Shown here in pieces: positions 15,072 through 41,499 of a stretch of DNA of 64,000 bases. The stretch spans positions 246,076 to 310,075 of the forward strand of contig BCJJ01000019.1 in NCBI GenBank assembly GCA_039545355.1, in the 5' to 3' direction. The position numbers and the translations under genes were made by a program. Position 1 is the first letter of the stretch; each line of letters opens with the position of its first letter. The DNA is from Trichosporon coremiiforme. Its lineage: Eukaryota; Basidiomycota; Tremellomycetes; Trichosporonales; Trichosporonaceae. A model generated the notes under the pieces. The model worked only from the letters and a program-made list of their open reading frames with translations. It was not told the origin of the DNA and did no database searches.

Positions 15072-17520
15072 ATGGAGGCCTACAACTATTCGGAGTCTCC
15101 GCGCGACCTCAACTCTCCGCCTGATCCCTCGGAGAACGGATACTCCTTTGCACGCAACAACAGATCTCACTGTGAGTGCACGCGATGGATCGATTCGTAC
15201 GACAACGCTAACACGCGGTCCAGATTCTTCACAGCACTCCTCGCATCCCTCCGGGGCGTCCACGATCATGAACACTGGGTCCGCCTCGCAGTCGACGACT
15301 GCAGTGAGCACAGTCTCCAGTGATGCCCCGTCCTCAACCACAACAGCGAACGCGTTTGCTAACCGGAACGGACGACGCATGTCCTCCAGCTCGGCCAGCC
15401 GTTTAGAGAATAAAGACGCGGACGGGCCCGTAGGCTTCGATGAGGGCATTCTCCGAGGGCTGTGTGACATGGATGTGAGTGCGATGCTGTGGGTGCCGAG
15501 ATGCTGTGCTAACGAATTCAGTGTGCTCTTCCTCTACTCGGAGACAGGATAAAGCAGTCCGTTGCATCTTGCAAGGTAAGGCAGTGTGACGCCGTACGCC
15601 ACCCGATCGGCTAACATAGCAGCAAATCTCTGGCTTCTTTCGTCAACGGTCCGACGTGGAAGAGAAGTACGCTCGAGGATTGAGTGACATGGCGAGACAG
15701 GCAAATGAAGTTTACAGTAAGATGGACTGCAAGGCGGGGTGAGTCGAGCGGCAAAGGTGCCGATTGATGGACATCCAGCTGACAACTCGTGCAGTTCGTT
15801 TGTCCAGTCCTACCAGCAATCGCTTCGTATGCAAGAGCAGCTCGCGCAGAATAGGCTTCGGTTCGCCCAGCGGCTCGGAGAGATGAGCGAGGAGCTTGCG
15901 TCGCTCGCGAGGGAAGGCGAAAAGCAACGTAAGGTCCACAAGGATAACGGCGCGCGTTTCCAAGGCATACTTCATGAGTCCGAAACGGTCATGGACAAGG
16001 CCAAAGCGCGGTTCGATGCGACAGCCGAGGAGCTCGAGCGTATCCTAGTAGCCAAAGAGGGAGAGAGCTACCGCGACGCGGGTATGCGCAATGCCAATGC
16101 TGCCAACCACACAGCTGGCAACGGTACCGGCGCGAATAAGAACCGTATCGGCAAAGCCATGACCAAGGGCTTGTTCAAGGGCAAGAACCCCGCACAGATG
16201 CAACGCCACGAAGACGACGTCCGACAACGCATGGCCGGTGCAAGCGAGGCGTTCCGCAAGGCGGTTCTGGAGAGCCAAGCGCTGCGCCAGGAGTATTTCA
16301 ACTTCCAGTTGCCCAAGATTGTTCGGGTGAGTAAACTGATGAAGTGAGAGGGAAGCGAGCGTCGTGCTGACCATCTTGCAGCTTCTCAAGGACTGTGCCG
16401 ATGAACTCGACCTCGGAATCCAGTACCACCTGACTCGCTATGCCTTCATGTACGAGTCGACTGTGGTCGGAGAGGGGTCCATTCTTTGCCCGCCTACACC
16501 CGACGACGGAATGAGTCTGAAGCAAGTGTTCGAGAGCATCGACAACCGCAGCGATTTCAAGTCGTACATGCAGAACTACGCTGTCGCCCGTAACATCCCG
16601 AAGGGACCTCGCAGAGAGGGGCCGTACGATGAGAACTTCGTGAGTCGTCCCTACTATGCCGTCACGAAGCTAACGACAGAATCCGACGTTACCGCCGCAC
16701 GTGCAGGCGTCTACGTCGTCGGCTGGTGGACCCGTCATCTCCGGTCCTACCAACGTCCAGACTAATCCCGTTCCACCGCCGAACGGCAGCGCCGTTGCTG
16801 TGACATCACCACCACAGAACGACTACTACTCCAGCAGCTCCATCCCGGCATCAACTGGAGCGACGTTTGGAGTTGATCTCGGCGATCAACTGCAGCGCGA
16901 CGGAACGGAGGTGCCGAAAGTGGTCAAAAAATGCGCGGAGGCGATCGAGGCATACGGTCTCGAGTCCATGGGAATCTACCGTCTGTCCGGTACAACTAGC
17001 AAGGTGCAGGCGCTCAAGAATGCCCTTGATAAGGACATCGATAGCGTTGATGTTTTGGACGAGCAGTGGACCTCGGACATCAACGTTGTGTCTGGCGCGC
17101 TCAAGCTGTGGTTCCGGGAGTTGCCGGAACCGCTGCTTACGTACGGACTCTACCATGGCTTTATCGAGGCTGCCAGGTACGACAACGACCGTTTACGTCA
17201 CATCCGACTGCACGAGCAGGTGAACGAGCTGCCAGACCCCAACTACGCGACTCTGAAGTACTTCATGGGTCACCTGGACCGCATCCGTCGCAAGGAAGGC
17301 GTCAACCAGATGTCGGCTTCTAATCTCTCGATCGTGTTCGGCCCGACGCTGCTCGGCGCCCCACCAGAGGAGGGAGGGCTGAACCTGGAGCACATGAATT
17401 TCCAGTGCAAGGTGAGTTTGAGCTCAGCGTCCGCTACGGTCTCAGCTGACACGACAGGCAATTGAGACCATTCTGGAAAAGTACCAGGAGATTTTCGTCG
17501 AGGAGGAGGAAGAGGCATGA
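15072..17520 (+). CDS. RGD1: F-BAR and RhoGAP domain protein (Rgd1-like)
   Basis: Eight exons: 15072-15171, 15224-15474, 15522-15575, 15623-15738, 15795-16326, 16382-16639, 16680-17411 and 17458-17520; 701 residues, all phases consistent. The F-BAR domain (about 110-400) includes CALPLLGDRIKQ, ISGFFRQRSDVEEKYARGL and KAGSFVQSYQQ, a membrane-curvature coiled coil. The RhoGAP domain (about 498-690) carries the arginine finger in GIYRLSG and the helices LWFRELPEPLLTY and MSASNLSIVFGPTLL. In yeast Rgd1 inactivates Rho3/Rho4 at sites of polarised growth and cytokinesis, which is the expected role here. The ATG at 15072 is the first in frame; the open frame before it lacks one. The C-terminus is acidic. 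Confidence 0.93.
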
Positions 17521-17894
17521 GCTGGTGCCGGCGCCGGAATGTAGTTCTAGGAGCGAGAAGACGCCAAAGACGATGCTGGCATGCGCATTACACAACATTA
17601 TAAGTCTCGTATTCAGGAGAACGAAGAAGAGGGTACGAAGCGGAGCGGGGTAGCTGCGGATAGAAGGTTAGGTAGTACGCTGTAGTGTACCGTATGGTCT
17701 CCATACCATGACATTAAAATGGTTAACCGTTTCGTGTACACTTCAGACGCAGCTGAAGATGCAGAGAAAGACAGCGCTCGAACAGCGACAGAGAGCTTAG
17801 AGGCCCAAGACCTTGATGCAGTTCAACCTTTTGCGAAACATTCATGCTGCTTTTTGCTACGGACTAGCACCTATGTTGCTTTGCGAAGATCTGC
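17521..17894. other. Convergent spacer, RGD1 and COX6B
   Basis: A 374-base 3'-to-3' spacer. No gene or RNA seen; it should hold both polyadenylation regions. Confidence 0.6.
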
Positions 17895-18751
17895 TTAAGG
17901 CTCAACCGAAGCGGGGAAGGTGCCGTTCTCGAGCTGCTCGTCCCACTTGCCGGTCCACTCGTCTGTCGATGTCAGCTCCTTGACCGATCTGCGTCTAGCT
18001 CGACCATGATACTCACTGGGACAGAGGGCCTGGTAGGCGCGCTTGAACTGCTGGCAAGGCTGGAAGTCCTCGCCCTTGGCGTTGACGCACTTGTGGAAGT
18101 CAACGAAGTTTTGCTATCGGTCAGCGACGACGCCGAGGAACAGTCGGGTTGGTTGGAATGGTGGACGCGGACCGGTGACGTCGGATCATTCGGAAGAGCG
18201 CGAAATGCCTCCCTCCGTCCGATCACCGAAAAGTCTGTCCGTGTCCCAGCCATGTCCATCCCAACCGGCAGCAGGACTCACCCAGCTGTGCATGTGTACA
18301 GATCGAGTAGCGCAAGTGTGTAGTGAGCGTTATGTGAGTTCGCGATCGATGAAAAGTCGAGGTCAGCTATCGATTCTCAGGCGCAGAGTTGCTCCGCATC
18401 TCACCAGTGCTTGGTCTGGTTCTGGTTGGGGAACCGGGCGCTGAACGTTAGCTGCGTCCTACTCAACACGGCTGATAACTCACTCGAAGCCAGCAGTCTG
18501 CAGCTGGTCGGGCGTCAGCAGCTTGCTTGTCGCGATAGCGGAGTCGATTGCGTCCTCCGACAATGCGGGTGTCGATCCTTCCAATCATATTCCTCCGGTT
18601 GTCAGTCTAAACTCACGGTGTAGGTCCTGCGAAACGTTAGCTTTCGACTTTTGCTGGTAGCCCTGGTGCATGCACGGCATGCCTGCCTCGCCGGCGGACC
18701 ACACGCGCGCTGCGAGCGCTGCGCGAGCTGAACTCACTTCTCCTCGGACAT
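17895..18751 (-). CDS. COX12: Cytochrome c oxidase subunit VIb (Cox12), seven exons including a 4-nt microexon
   Basis: Exons: 18738-18751 (14 nt), 18617-18626 (10), 18484-18503 (20), 18405-18440 (36), 18282-18285 (4), 18017-18113 (97) and 17895-17962 (68). The sum is 249 nt, 82 residues plus stop, the normal size for the family. The spliced protein contains LQTAGFDARFPNQNQTKHCW, QNFVDFHKCVNAKGEDFQPC and EWTGKWDEQLENGTFP. COX6B is a peripheral intermembrane-space subunit of complex IV held by twin disulfides; CX9C and CX10C spacing is present only if the CTGG microexon is included. Every boundary has GT-AG signals. Exon 3 uses the acceptor after CTGACGCCCGACCAG; other acceptors would add residues absent from the family. 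It is head-to-head with CIA2, 271 bases apart. Confidence 0.9.
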
Positions 18752-19022
18752 GGTGGTGAGTGGTGTAGTGGGAGAAAGCAAGAGCTCATTCGGGGTTAGC
18801 TCGGGGCTTTCCGGGCGCACCGTGGCGGATGCCTGGTCATTGGCTGCAACCGCAGGCACAGGCTCCCATCTGTTTGCTCCCGTCCCTCGACCTGAGACAG
18901 GCAACCAGAGTCGACCTCCACCTGAGTCATCCATATCCCGTCCGAACTTCTGTAGTCTTCGCCGCTCGACTTTTGACATTAATAACTCACACGACTGAAC
19001 ACTAGCAAGAACAAGCAGCATT

Positions 19023-19679
19023 ATGCCAAGAGAACTGGACAACGCCGCACCGGAAATCTATGCCACCGCTGGCACCGGCCGCGAGGAGGGCCTGTGGGCT
19101 GACGCATTCGAGGACCCCCTCCAGCCCTCCGACGAGGAGAGAGAGGAGATTGACTCGCAGGAAGTCTTCGGTTCGTACTGCTTGTGTCCCAATTCGCGCG
19201 TGGCTGACAACAGACCTGATTCGTTCCGTCACTGACCCCGAGCACCCCGTGTCGCTCGAGCAGCTCCGCGTCGTGTCTCCTGAGGATGTCCATGTGCGCG
19301 GCAACCGTGTGCTCGTGTATCTGACTCCGACGATCCCGCATTGCTCCATGAGCACATTGATCGGTGAGTGCAGTGACTACATCAGGTCCACATCATCTGC
19401 TGCATGCTTGTCTGTGGGTTTTTGCTTACATCAGGCCTCTCACTCCGCGTGCGTCTGCTCCGCGCCCTGCCGTCCCGTTATCGCGTCGACCTCCGCATCA
19501 AGGAGGGCACGCATCAGTCTGAGCACGCTGTCAACAAGCAGCTGAACGACAAGGAGCGCGTACAGGCTGCTCTCGAGAACAGGCACCTGCTCCAGGTCGT
19601 TGAGGGCTGTCTCGCCACCGCCGGCCGCCGCGGTGCGACTGGGTGCGACGCCGACGACCACACCGGCCACAACCACTAG
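19023..19679 (+). CDS. CIA2: Cytosolic Fe-S assembly factor CIA2 (MIP18/FAM96 family)
   Basis: Three exons: 19023-19170, 19214-19363 and 19435-19679; 180 residues. After an acidic N-terminus comes the DUF59 core: [37 protein letters not shown] and [20 protein letters not shown], then [13 protein letters not shown]. The Cys of PHCSM is the conserved reactive cysteine of the family. CIA2 forms the CIA targeting complex with CIA1 and MMS19 and delivers [4Fe-4S] clusters to cytosolic and nuclear enzymes. Intron 1 uses an unusual GTTCGT donor; it is the only choice that yields the conserved Asp of DLIRSV in frame. The tail after the core is Gly/Asp/His-rich. Confidence 0.93.
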
Positions 19680-19808
19680 TTTCGCTTCGTAGCCCTCTGT
19701 AGCCCTGTTGTACCACTATGCACTGTCCTCTACGTCATTGAGCTGAAAAGTGGTGTATTAATACATCGATACTTCTTTCCCCGATGCTGCAAGCTAGATA
19801 CGCCCTGC

Positions 19809-20876
19809 TCAGTTCTTGCCGTCCTTGCCCTGGAGGACCTTGTCGTCGGTGACGTCGAGAAGGAGGGAGCCAGAGTCGAGCATGAGCTTGTTCGGGCTCT
19901 GCTGGAGGACGTTGGCAATTTCGCGGGCGGCCTCGAGGCGGCGGAGCTCGAGGAAGCCCTTGTTGTTCTGGACGGCCTTGCCGATGAGCTCGGCACCCTT
20001 GGCCTCTCCCTGCGCGCGAACGATGATCGACTGCTTCTCCTGGATAGCCTGGTCGACCTGGAACGCGGCACGCTGGGCGACCTGCTGAGCAACCTGCTTC
20101 GCCTCGACGGCGTGCGTGAACTCAGGCGAGAACGCGACGTGCGTGATCGATACGTCGTCGAGAATGAGATTGAAGCGCCGCGCGCGAACAGTGAGGTTGT
20201 CACGGACAAGACGCGAGACCATCTCACGCTGCGTGATCAGCTGAGAGGCGTTGAACTGGGCAACGACAGACTTCAGGATCTCGTTCACAATCGAAGGCAG
20301 AACGCGCTCGTCGTAGTCGGTGCCGAGAGTGCGGTAGCTGAGGTCAGAAACTGTCGTATTCCGACTGCTTACATGGTGGGGAGCTGCTTCTGGTCAGGTC
20401 GCGAGAGCACACGGCAGGTAATGTTGACCTGTTCGTTAGCTCGCCAGTTGATCATCAGAGACCCTTACCATCTGCAGATCCTTGGTGCCCGTAAGAGAGC
20501 CGATGTTTCTCGGCTTGGCACGCACATCGTAGTCGATCGGGGTCTCAACCCAAGGGATCTGGTTTTGTCAGCTCATTCTTCGGACGGCCGCTACCTTGAA
20601 ATGAGTACCCTCTCCGTAGATCTTGTCCTGAATACCACCGAGCCTGGAGTAGAGAATAGCGCGGTGACCACCGTCGACGTTGTAGATCGAGGCGTTGACA
20701 GCGAGACCGCCAAGTACGAGGGCCATCAGGAGACCGCCGCCCGTCGCGGCTCCCTGCCCGTTACCGCCGCCGCGGCCGCGGCCGCCGCCACCGCCGCCGG
20801 CACGCGACGCCTGCTGACGGGCGCGGTTCAGCTGCTGAGCAAGTCGCGAGAAAGCCTCTCCTGGTGAGCGGTTCAT
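19809..20876 (-). CDS. PHB2: Prohibitin-2
   Basis: Four exons: 20595-20876, 20469-20558, 20373-20428 and 19809-20337; 318 residues. An N-terminal helix is followed by a Gly/Arg-rich stretch of about 20 residues and a hydrophobic anchor ([15 protein letters not shown]). The SPFH domain then reads [49 protein letters not shown] and [20 protein letters not shown], with a long C-terminal coiled coil. Prohibitin-2 assembles with PHB1 into ring complexes of the mitochondrial inner membrane that stabilise respiratory subunits and control m-AAA protease. Start is the ATG at 20876; the upstream in-frame ATG would add an untypical leader. It is tail-to-tail with CIA2, 129 bases apart. Confidence 0.95.
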
Positions 20877-21906: not shown

Positions 21907-21998
21907 TGACGTGAGTGGGATTCGAACCCACGCCCGAAGAACGCCGTAGATAACCCTGTACCTAAAGACGCCGCCTTAGACCGCTCGGCCATCACGCC
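21907..21998 (-). tRNA. tRNA-Leu, anticodon UAG, with a 14-nt intron
   Basis: On the minus strand GGCGTGA at the 5' end pairs with TCACGTC at the 3' end (one G-U), followed by discriminator A. The D arm is GCCGAGCGGTCTAAGGC, typical of type II tRNA-Leu. The anticodon loop reads TTTAGG then, after an intron at 21947-21960, C. The T arm is a perfect GTGGG TTCGAAT CCCAC. Intron placement one base 3' of the anticodon is canonical for eukaryotic nuclear tRNA introns and restores the 3' side of the anticodon stem (GGCGT). The internal A and B boxes are intact, so it is probably functional. The variable arm is short for a tRNA-Leu and could be folded slightly differently. Confidence 0.85.
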
Positions 21999-39901: not shown

Positions 39902-41499
39902 CTACACAACGATGACCTCAGGGGTGTCAGGCTTCGAGTCGCCCTTCGCATCCTCCTTCTTCGACGTCTCGTTTCCGTTTGAATCGCCGTTGGCAGTCGT
40001 GCCGCTCTTCAGCTTGGATCCGTTCTCCTTCGCCTCGTCCTTTGCCTTCTTGTCCTTGTCAGCCATGGGCTGGCTAGGCGTAGCCGACCTTGATGACTTC
40101 TCCTTGGCCTTCCCCAGAGACGCCAGGTTGCGGTAGCCGTCGGGGTACTGGGTCTTCTGTTACTGTTAGAAACGTTTCGTGAACGTCGACAAGGTCAGCA
40201 CTACTCACCCACTCCGGTCGAATAACCTTGTCCACGTCTTCGGCAATCTTCTTCGTAATCCTTTGCCCTGTCAGACGGATTCCTAGATATGGCTGGCCAA
40301 CTAGCACACTCACAACTTAATCGTCGACTCCGAAACTCCAGCGACATTTGAGATTTCCTTCGGGGTGCTAGAGTTCTCAAAGAGGATGCAGGTGAAGAAG
40401 AGAACGCCCGCAGCGATTGAGAGCGGACTGCGGCCATCGATGCATGATTTCTTCACAGCCGTCACTGCGATGTGCTTCGAGGCGTTGAAGATCGTGTTAC
40501 CCAAGTCCAGGTAGTTGCAGAAACGTCCAAGCATTCCCTCAGTCGACTCGCTGGCACTGCTGAAACCTTGAGGCTGAGAAATACCGCGACGCTGCTGCTC
40601 CGCCATAACGACCATTCGCAGCTCGTTGAACACCTTCCCTAGATCGGCTTTCGGAACCTTGACAGCCTTGCCGACCTCGCGGAACGAACGGGCCGCTCCA
40701 GCAGCGCGACATGCGAAGAGCACGCACGCCGCGATGATAGTGTCCGGGTGCTTGCCCTTGGACACGCTTTGCTCGTCACCGATGACATAGGCGTGCTGAG
40801 CGCGCTCGGCGATGGAGCGAGGCAATTGCATCGAGTCACAGACCTCATTGATGCGAGAGAAAGCCGCCTGAAGTTGTGCGGGAGTAGAACGAGTACCAGA
40901 CGCGGTCGCTGTGGCCTGCTGATTCGCTCGGTTCTGAGCGCGCTGTAGGTCACGCGACATGCCAGTACGTCCATCACGCCCTGAGATACTCGTCTCGAGA
41001 GGAGCATGTCCCAACAAAGGGTTGCTTGGACCTCCGACGCGGGAGGGGTCGTCACCGCCTTCATCACCAGCAAAGGTCTGTCATCAGCTTTTGTTCTGTC
41101 TCGATTGCTGAACACATACACGCCCTGCGCCGTCAGTTATCTGCTTCTCGACCATGGGTACTTACACTCGCTGCGAGTATCAACAATGCGGTCGCCCAAG
41201 ATAGTACCACAGTCACCACAGACCTGAAGGTTAGCAGGGAAGGGAAGACCGCCGACACTCACAAGATCGCCGTGGCTGTACTCCTCGATAATGTTCGGAG
41301 GATCGGTGCGGCAGTTAGGGCATAGGTGTCGTACCGCCAAATCCGGAACGATGGGCTGACCGTACTTGCCCTGGCAAATGAGACGAGTGTGCGCAAATCA
41401 CATGAGTGCGGGATGAGAGTGAGAGTTACGTCAGCACATCAGCAACTAGGAAGGCGGAACACATACCACGGGCGCCTTGGGCCCAGCTACTCCGTTCAT
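39902..41499 (-). CDS. SUA7: General transcription factor TFIIB with a 5-nt microexon
   Basis: Seven exons: 41467-41499, 41263-41370, 41166-41223, 41120-41124 (5 nt), 40314-41077, 40209-40260 and 39902-40156; 1275 nt, 424 residues. The zinc ribbon (about residues 25-53) uses HLCPNC and VCGDC. The reader segment DTRSEWRTFAGDEGGDDPSR is whole only when the microexon GGCGT is included. Two cyclin folds follow (for example SIAERAQHAYVIGDEQSVSK, TIIAACVLFACRAAGAARSF and CIDGRSPLSIAAGVLFFTCI). TFIIB bridges TBP at the promoter and RNA polymerase II. The C-terminus extends about 55 residues into a Lys/Asp/Glu-rich tail ending TPEVIVV, longer than the yeast protein. The microexon introns are 41 and 42 nt with CTGAC/CTGAT branch sites. 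Confidence 0.92.

Follow-up and report, generated by a model that had tools for sequence, protein, structure and literature searches.

Short fungal introns are generally regarded as being recognised by intron definition. For microexons, work on PRP-40 in C. elegans argues in favour of intron definition. Exons of 1–4 nt have already been published in plants, human and Fusarium. The human MPC1 gene has a constitutive 4-nt microexon with major branchpoints mapped to −68 and −64; the authors of that work suggest that a distal pyrimidine-rich region helps to overcome the closeness of the splice sites (PMC9929638). In plants, it is the intron downstream of a microexon that is more often the first to be removed (PMC8831610). 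The 4-nt exon CTGG of the COX6B gene presented here joins this known kind.

The window, i.e. the whole 64-kb stretch of DNA that was analysed (G000:C19:246076-310075), belongs to a genome of 42.04 Mb that is assembled into 134 contigs. Approximately 90% of the window is alignable to contig C18, and the aligned portion is about 81% identical. The genome is doubled at this place: positions 1–64000 of the window and approximately 272000–337000 of G000:C18 are collinear homeologs, as in hybrid genomes. COX6B runs from 18751 to 17895 on the minus strand, and its best gene model comprises seven coding exons of 14, 10, 20, 36, 4, 97 and 68 nt. Together they make a coding sequence of 249 nt including the stop, which agrees with the total given in the earlier note, and a protein of 82 residues. 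Exon 1 (18738–18751) begins with the ATG and is the same in the homeolog. Exon 2 (18617–18626) has only 10 nt and shifts the frame if skipped, while exon 3 (18484–18503) could also start 6 nt later, at 18497, in a 14-nt form that gives a coding sequence of 243 nt; the sequence fits either. Exon 4 (18405–18440) ends at 18405 with TG, the first bases of the Cys27 codon, and exon 6 (18017–18113) opens at 18113 with the codons CAA AAC. Exon 7 (17895–17962) contains the stop codon. The first 84 coding nucleotides are spread over five exons, amongst which exon 2 is a second microexon.

The tetranucleotide itself is present on the minus strand at 18282–18285, between an upstream CACAG and a downstream GTGAGT, exactly as had been observed. 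It is internal, not longer than 15 nt and flanked by a GT-AG intron on each side (intron 4, 18286–18404, 119 nt, from the join enumeration and the gene model; intron 5, 18114–18281, 168 nt, or 181 nt in the homeolog), and can accordingly be called a microexon. In the spliced 82-residue translation CTGG completes Cys27 and supplies Trp28, as proposed, and the reading expected across it is AAGCACTG-CTGG-CAAAAC. The claim that joining exon 4 directly to exon 6 breaks the frame also holds, since amongst all one-intron joins with GT/GC-AG introns none is both in frame and open, either in the window copy or in the homeolog. When the exon 4 donor and the exon 6 acceptor are fixed and two introns are allowed, 11 models are in frame and open in the window and 10 in the homeolog. 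In both copies CTGG is the sole model that yields HCWQN, and also the sole one with a consensus donor. The remaining models use GC or weak GT donors and lead to different residues or inserts; longer exons of 13 and 16 nt in the window and of 16 nt in the homeolog, which start from the CTGG acceptor, give Cys-Trp too, via GC donors and with extra residues. The remark in the earlier note that exons of this size are close to the limit for exon definition was overstated, considering that 1-nt exons have been published.

With the CTGG exon, the protein matches the Pfam COX6B family (PF02297) with 85.7 bits, against a cut-off of 26, and its best PDB matches are Cox12/COX6B chains. Without CTGG, the 91-residue reading matches no Pfam family at E 0.001, and neither does an 81-residue part of it. 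Cysteines are found at positions 27, 37, 48 and 59, which is the CX9C and CX10C spacing that had been announced. Based on this spacing and on the Pfam cut-off, the gene is assigned to COX6B/Cox12, a predicted subunit of cytochrome c oxidase. The motif Cys-Trp-Gln-Asn is indeed restored by CTGG. Its description as invariant in the family was too strong, as the five PDB alignments listed (four of them to near-identical Cox12 chains) show C-F-Q-S for 8c8q_J and C-W-Q-S for the others. Taken together, the frame, the homeolog and the Pfam match support the interpretation of CTGG as a coding exon of 4 nt in COX6B.

In the C18 copy of the gene, all seven exon lengths, the microexon and the splice-site dinucleotides are unchanged. 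The two coding sequences differ at 5 of 249 positions, all of them third codon positions, and the two 82-residue proteins are therefore identical. A search of the genome with the Pfam COX6B family gave four places, namely the window copy, the C18 copy and a pair on C3 and C26. The latter reads as the assembly factor COA6 (the C3 copy was also compared with PDB), and hence no COX6B lacking the microexon was found in the genome. In this homeologous pair (L001 on C3, L002 on C26), Cys-Trp is encoded within a single uninterrupted exon. The exact pattern from the exon 4 donor through the microexon donor occurs at just two places in the genome, in the window and in its homeolog. Since only two copies of COX6B were found and both carry CTGG, the exon looks obligatory. 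It is required for the reading frame and is conserved in the one other copy; conservation of the exon, the splice sites and the AG-free zones is here that between two homeologs of one genome. No relatives were found in the prokaryote and viral contig collections.

These data bear on the possibility that the gene has decayed, was mis-assembled or uses another junction, with CTGG being a mere coincidence. The enumeration covered GT/GC-AG introns, which leaves some room for a different junction of the AT-AC type. Such a coincidence would however have to coexist with seven exons and an identical protein kept in both homeologs, and no third COX6B copy that could take over was found in the 42.04-Mb genome. 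Moreover, a search of both strands of the 64 kb for YAG-CTGG-GTRAGT gives a single hit, compared with none in 100 dinucleotide shuffles. We therefore find this explanation hardly credible.

The frame also determines what would follow from mis-splicing. If exon 5 is skipped, all residues beyond Cys27 are replaced in a 91-residue product; if intron 4 is retained, the reading stops after 27 residues in both copies, and retention of intron 5 ends it early as well. The microexon could thus be regulated, skipping or retention giving frame-shifted or truncated products that tune the amount of COX6B. Loss of frame upon skipping is, however, expected for any exon whose length is not divisible by three, and as the skipped form has no early stop, its decay is not obvious. 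Regulation of this type seems improbable to us, and we read CTGG as a constitutive exon in what follows.

Intron 4 differs from the other introns of the gene in the position of its branch motif. In both copies, those other introns (five of six) have a nearest CTRAY whose A is 7–11 nt before the intron end. This includes intron 5, which has a proximal branch motif despite an AG-free end of 93 nt before its acceptor AG (18116–18208; 103 nt in the homeolog), and the motif is likewise proximal next to the 10-nt exon 2, which weighs against the distal-branch reading proposed below. Intron 4 contains a single CTRAY, the candidate distal branch site CTGAC at 18362–18366, the A of which (18363) is 77 nt from the intron end (76 nt in the homeolog). 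There is no AG between this motif and the acceptor, the AG-free stretch spanning 79 nt (18288–18366; 78 nt in the homeolog). Amongst AGs in general, those preceded by at least 75 AG-free nt make up 0.8% on the minus strand of the window and 1.0% in the homeologous stretch. The 16 nt around CTGAC, CTGACCTCGACTTTTC, are identical in both copies and occur once in the window; beyond them, the tail of intron 4 has 71% identity over 65 columns between window and homeolog. The sequence, its frame, its conservation and these AG-free stretches are all seen directly.

From them we infer the use of the distal branch site, an order of intron removal and constitutive inclusion. CTGG is probably a real, constitutive 4-nt exon, made possible by a distal branch site and an AG-free zone and by the successive removal of its introns. 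Two faces of the spliceosome could not easily share four nucleotides. The start of intron 4 would be ordinary, with its donor approximately 40 nt from the consensus branch motif CTGAC. A branch site some 77 nt upstream of the acceptor, together with the AG desert, would free the first step of intron 4 splicing from contact with the acceptor, and the first AG encountered after the desert would be the correct one. The distant branch site would also hold U2 clear of U1 at GTGAGT, which lies 4 nt past the acceptor, so that a collision between U2 and U1 could be avoided. The introns would be removed one by one and, by likeness to plants, the downstream intron 5 would more often be the first to go; intron 4 would then be removed next to an ordinary 101-nt exon.

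In order to judge how unusual intron 4 is, it was compared with control introns, which were drawn heuristically from conserved frames elsewhere in the aligned stretches. Both control sets were filtered by frame, donor and flank, and the first left out introns with an identity above 0.88. In this first set, none of 35 introns has an AG-free tail of at least 60 nt in both copies, and where the intron measures 85 nt or more (16 introns, 32 copies), no copy is AG-free over the last 80 nt. After enlargement by 20 kb, none of 46 introns reaches 78 AG-free nt in both copies. The Fisher values for the AG test (0.003 and 0.009) are not to be trusted as they stand, because the test was picked after intron 4 had been seen. 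Several long controls also seem to be mis-drawn so that they include exon sequence; this inflates their AG counts, to the benefit of the distal-branch case. One of the 46 controls is similar to intron 4 of COX6B: this predicted minus-strand intron (41371–41466 in the window) has AG-free tails of 73 and 74 nt in its two homeologous copies, and no microexon is known beside it.

This control is relevant to another explanation, according to which CTGG is real and its splicing ordinary, from a proximal non-consensus branch site (e.g. CTCGAY), the AG-free stretches being a product of composition and of the shared ancestry of the copies. Both copies of intron 4 contain a weak CTCGAY motif whose A is 17 nt away from the acceptor; amongst the control introns, however, 74 of 92 intron copies have their nearest CTRAY no further than 20 nt away. 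Shuffling of the intron tails gave P values of 0.04 and 0.12 for intron 4, i.e. weakly unusual for its composition, and of 0.02 and 0.01 for intron 5. Composition therefore accounts for part of the AG depletion, and as the control above indicates, a comparable stretch can be found elsewhere. This explanation is less easily reconciled with the fact that CTGAC and the bases after it have stayed the same in the two copies, whereas the tail behind them has diverged. All considered, ordinary splicing from a proximal site appears rather unlikely, and the distal branch site remains our preferred reading.

Intron 5 has features of its own. Its first 131 nt (18151–18281) show 92% identity between window and homeolog, and its longest identical run is 58 nt, compared with at most 46 nt in long controls. 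The best identity over 100 nt is 0.94; amongst the 21 control introns that measure 110 nt or more, two have 0.95–0.96. A long hairpin is predicted in this intron, with a z of −2.1 to −2.2 in the window copy and −0.7 in the homeolog, and 2 of 48 consensus pairs, derived from two sequences, are changed on both sides. Given the weak z of the homeolog, a conserved hairpin was rejected as the main mechanism. A known RNA in intron 5 was also rejected, since Rfam has no match in 16000–20500 up to E 5; at gathering scores, the sole Rfam match in the whole window is a tRNA. A 92-nt tRNA gene is located on the minus strand at 21907–21998, where window and homeolog share 93% identity, and by its length it probably contains an intron. 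Finally, an origin of introns 4 and 5 from repeats, mobile elements or introner-like elements was rejected, as each of them matches only itself and its homeolog in the 42-Mb genome.

No description of a COX6B microexon was found in the open-licence literature among the matches listed by title or start of abstract, and the matches listed in the same way for fungal microexons include no COX6B case. Ordinary gene prediction could easily break a gene of the respiratory chain over one 4-nt exon. If the distal branch site is used, this compact fungal gene would be a simple system in which to study an exon smaller than the spliceosome footprint, and it would be a second 4-nt exon, after that of human MPC1, with such a layout. 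More tentatively, exons below that footprint may need a 3′ splice site decoupled by a remote branch site and an AG-free zone, and fungi and animals may have arrived at this solution independently, both at a 4-nt exon in a nuclear gene of a mitochondrial protein; we consider this generalisation possible rather than probable. Should it be true, AG deserts next to exon pairs that cannot be joined could reveal fungal microexons that have been missed.

When compared with known systems, the COX6B exon shares features with several of them. The neural microexons that depend on the eMIC domain of Srrm also have a long AG exclusion zone before the acceptor and strong branch sites, but they belong to bilaterian neurons, are alternatively spliced and have a UGC near the acceptor (PMC8797185). 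A UGC motif is not conserved near the CTGG acceptor, which reads ATGCACAG in the window and ACGTACAG in the homeolog. The microexon of Xlr2 from Trichoderma virens is, like CTGG, a coding one from a fungus, and differs in that it is described as switching a transcription factor from one isoform to another (PMC11121469). Small microexons of plants are constitutive and coding; they complete conserved motifs and escape annotation, all of which resembles the present case, although the plant examples (1 nt in APC11 and VPS55, 4 nt in rice) have broad support from RNA-seq and RT-PCR (PMC8831610). The exon of Fusarium CYP621A is fungal too and was likewise deduced from a phase gap between exons within a conserved motif, with an acceptor and a donor conserved across orthologs; it differs in having 1 nt, in belonging to a P450 gene of Ascomycota and in being supported by SRA reads (PMC12940212). 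Human MPC1 has in common with COX6B a 4-nt exon, a length that is not a multiple of three, and a nuclear gene for a mitochondrial protein. Both also have far-upstream branchpoints, mapped at −68 and −64 in MPC1 and predicted at −77 and −76 for the COX6B candidate, with the difference that the flanking introns are long in the human gene and short in the fungal one (PMC9929638).
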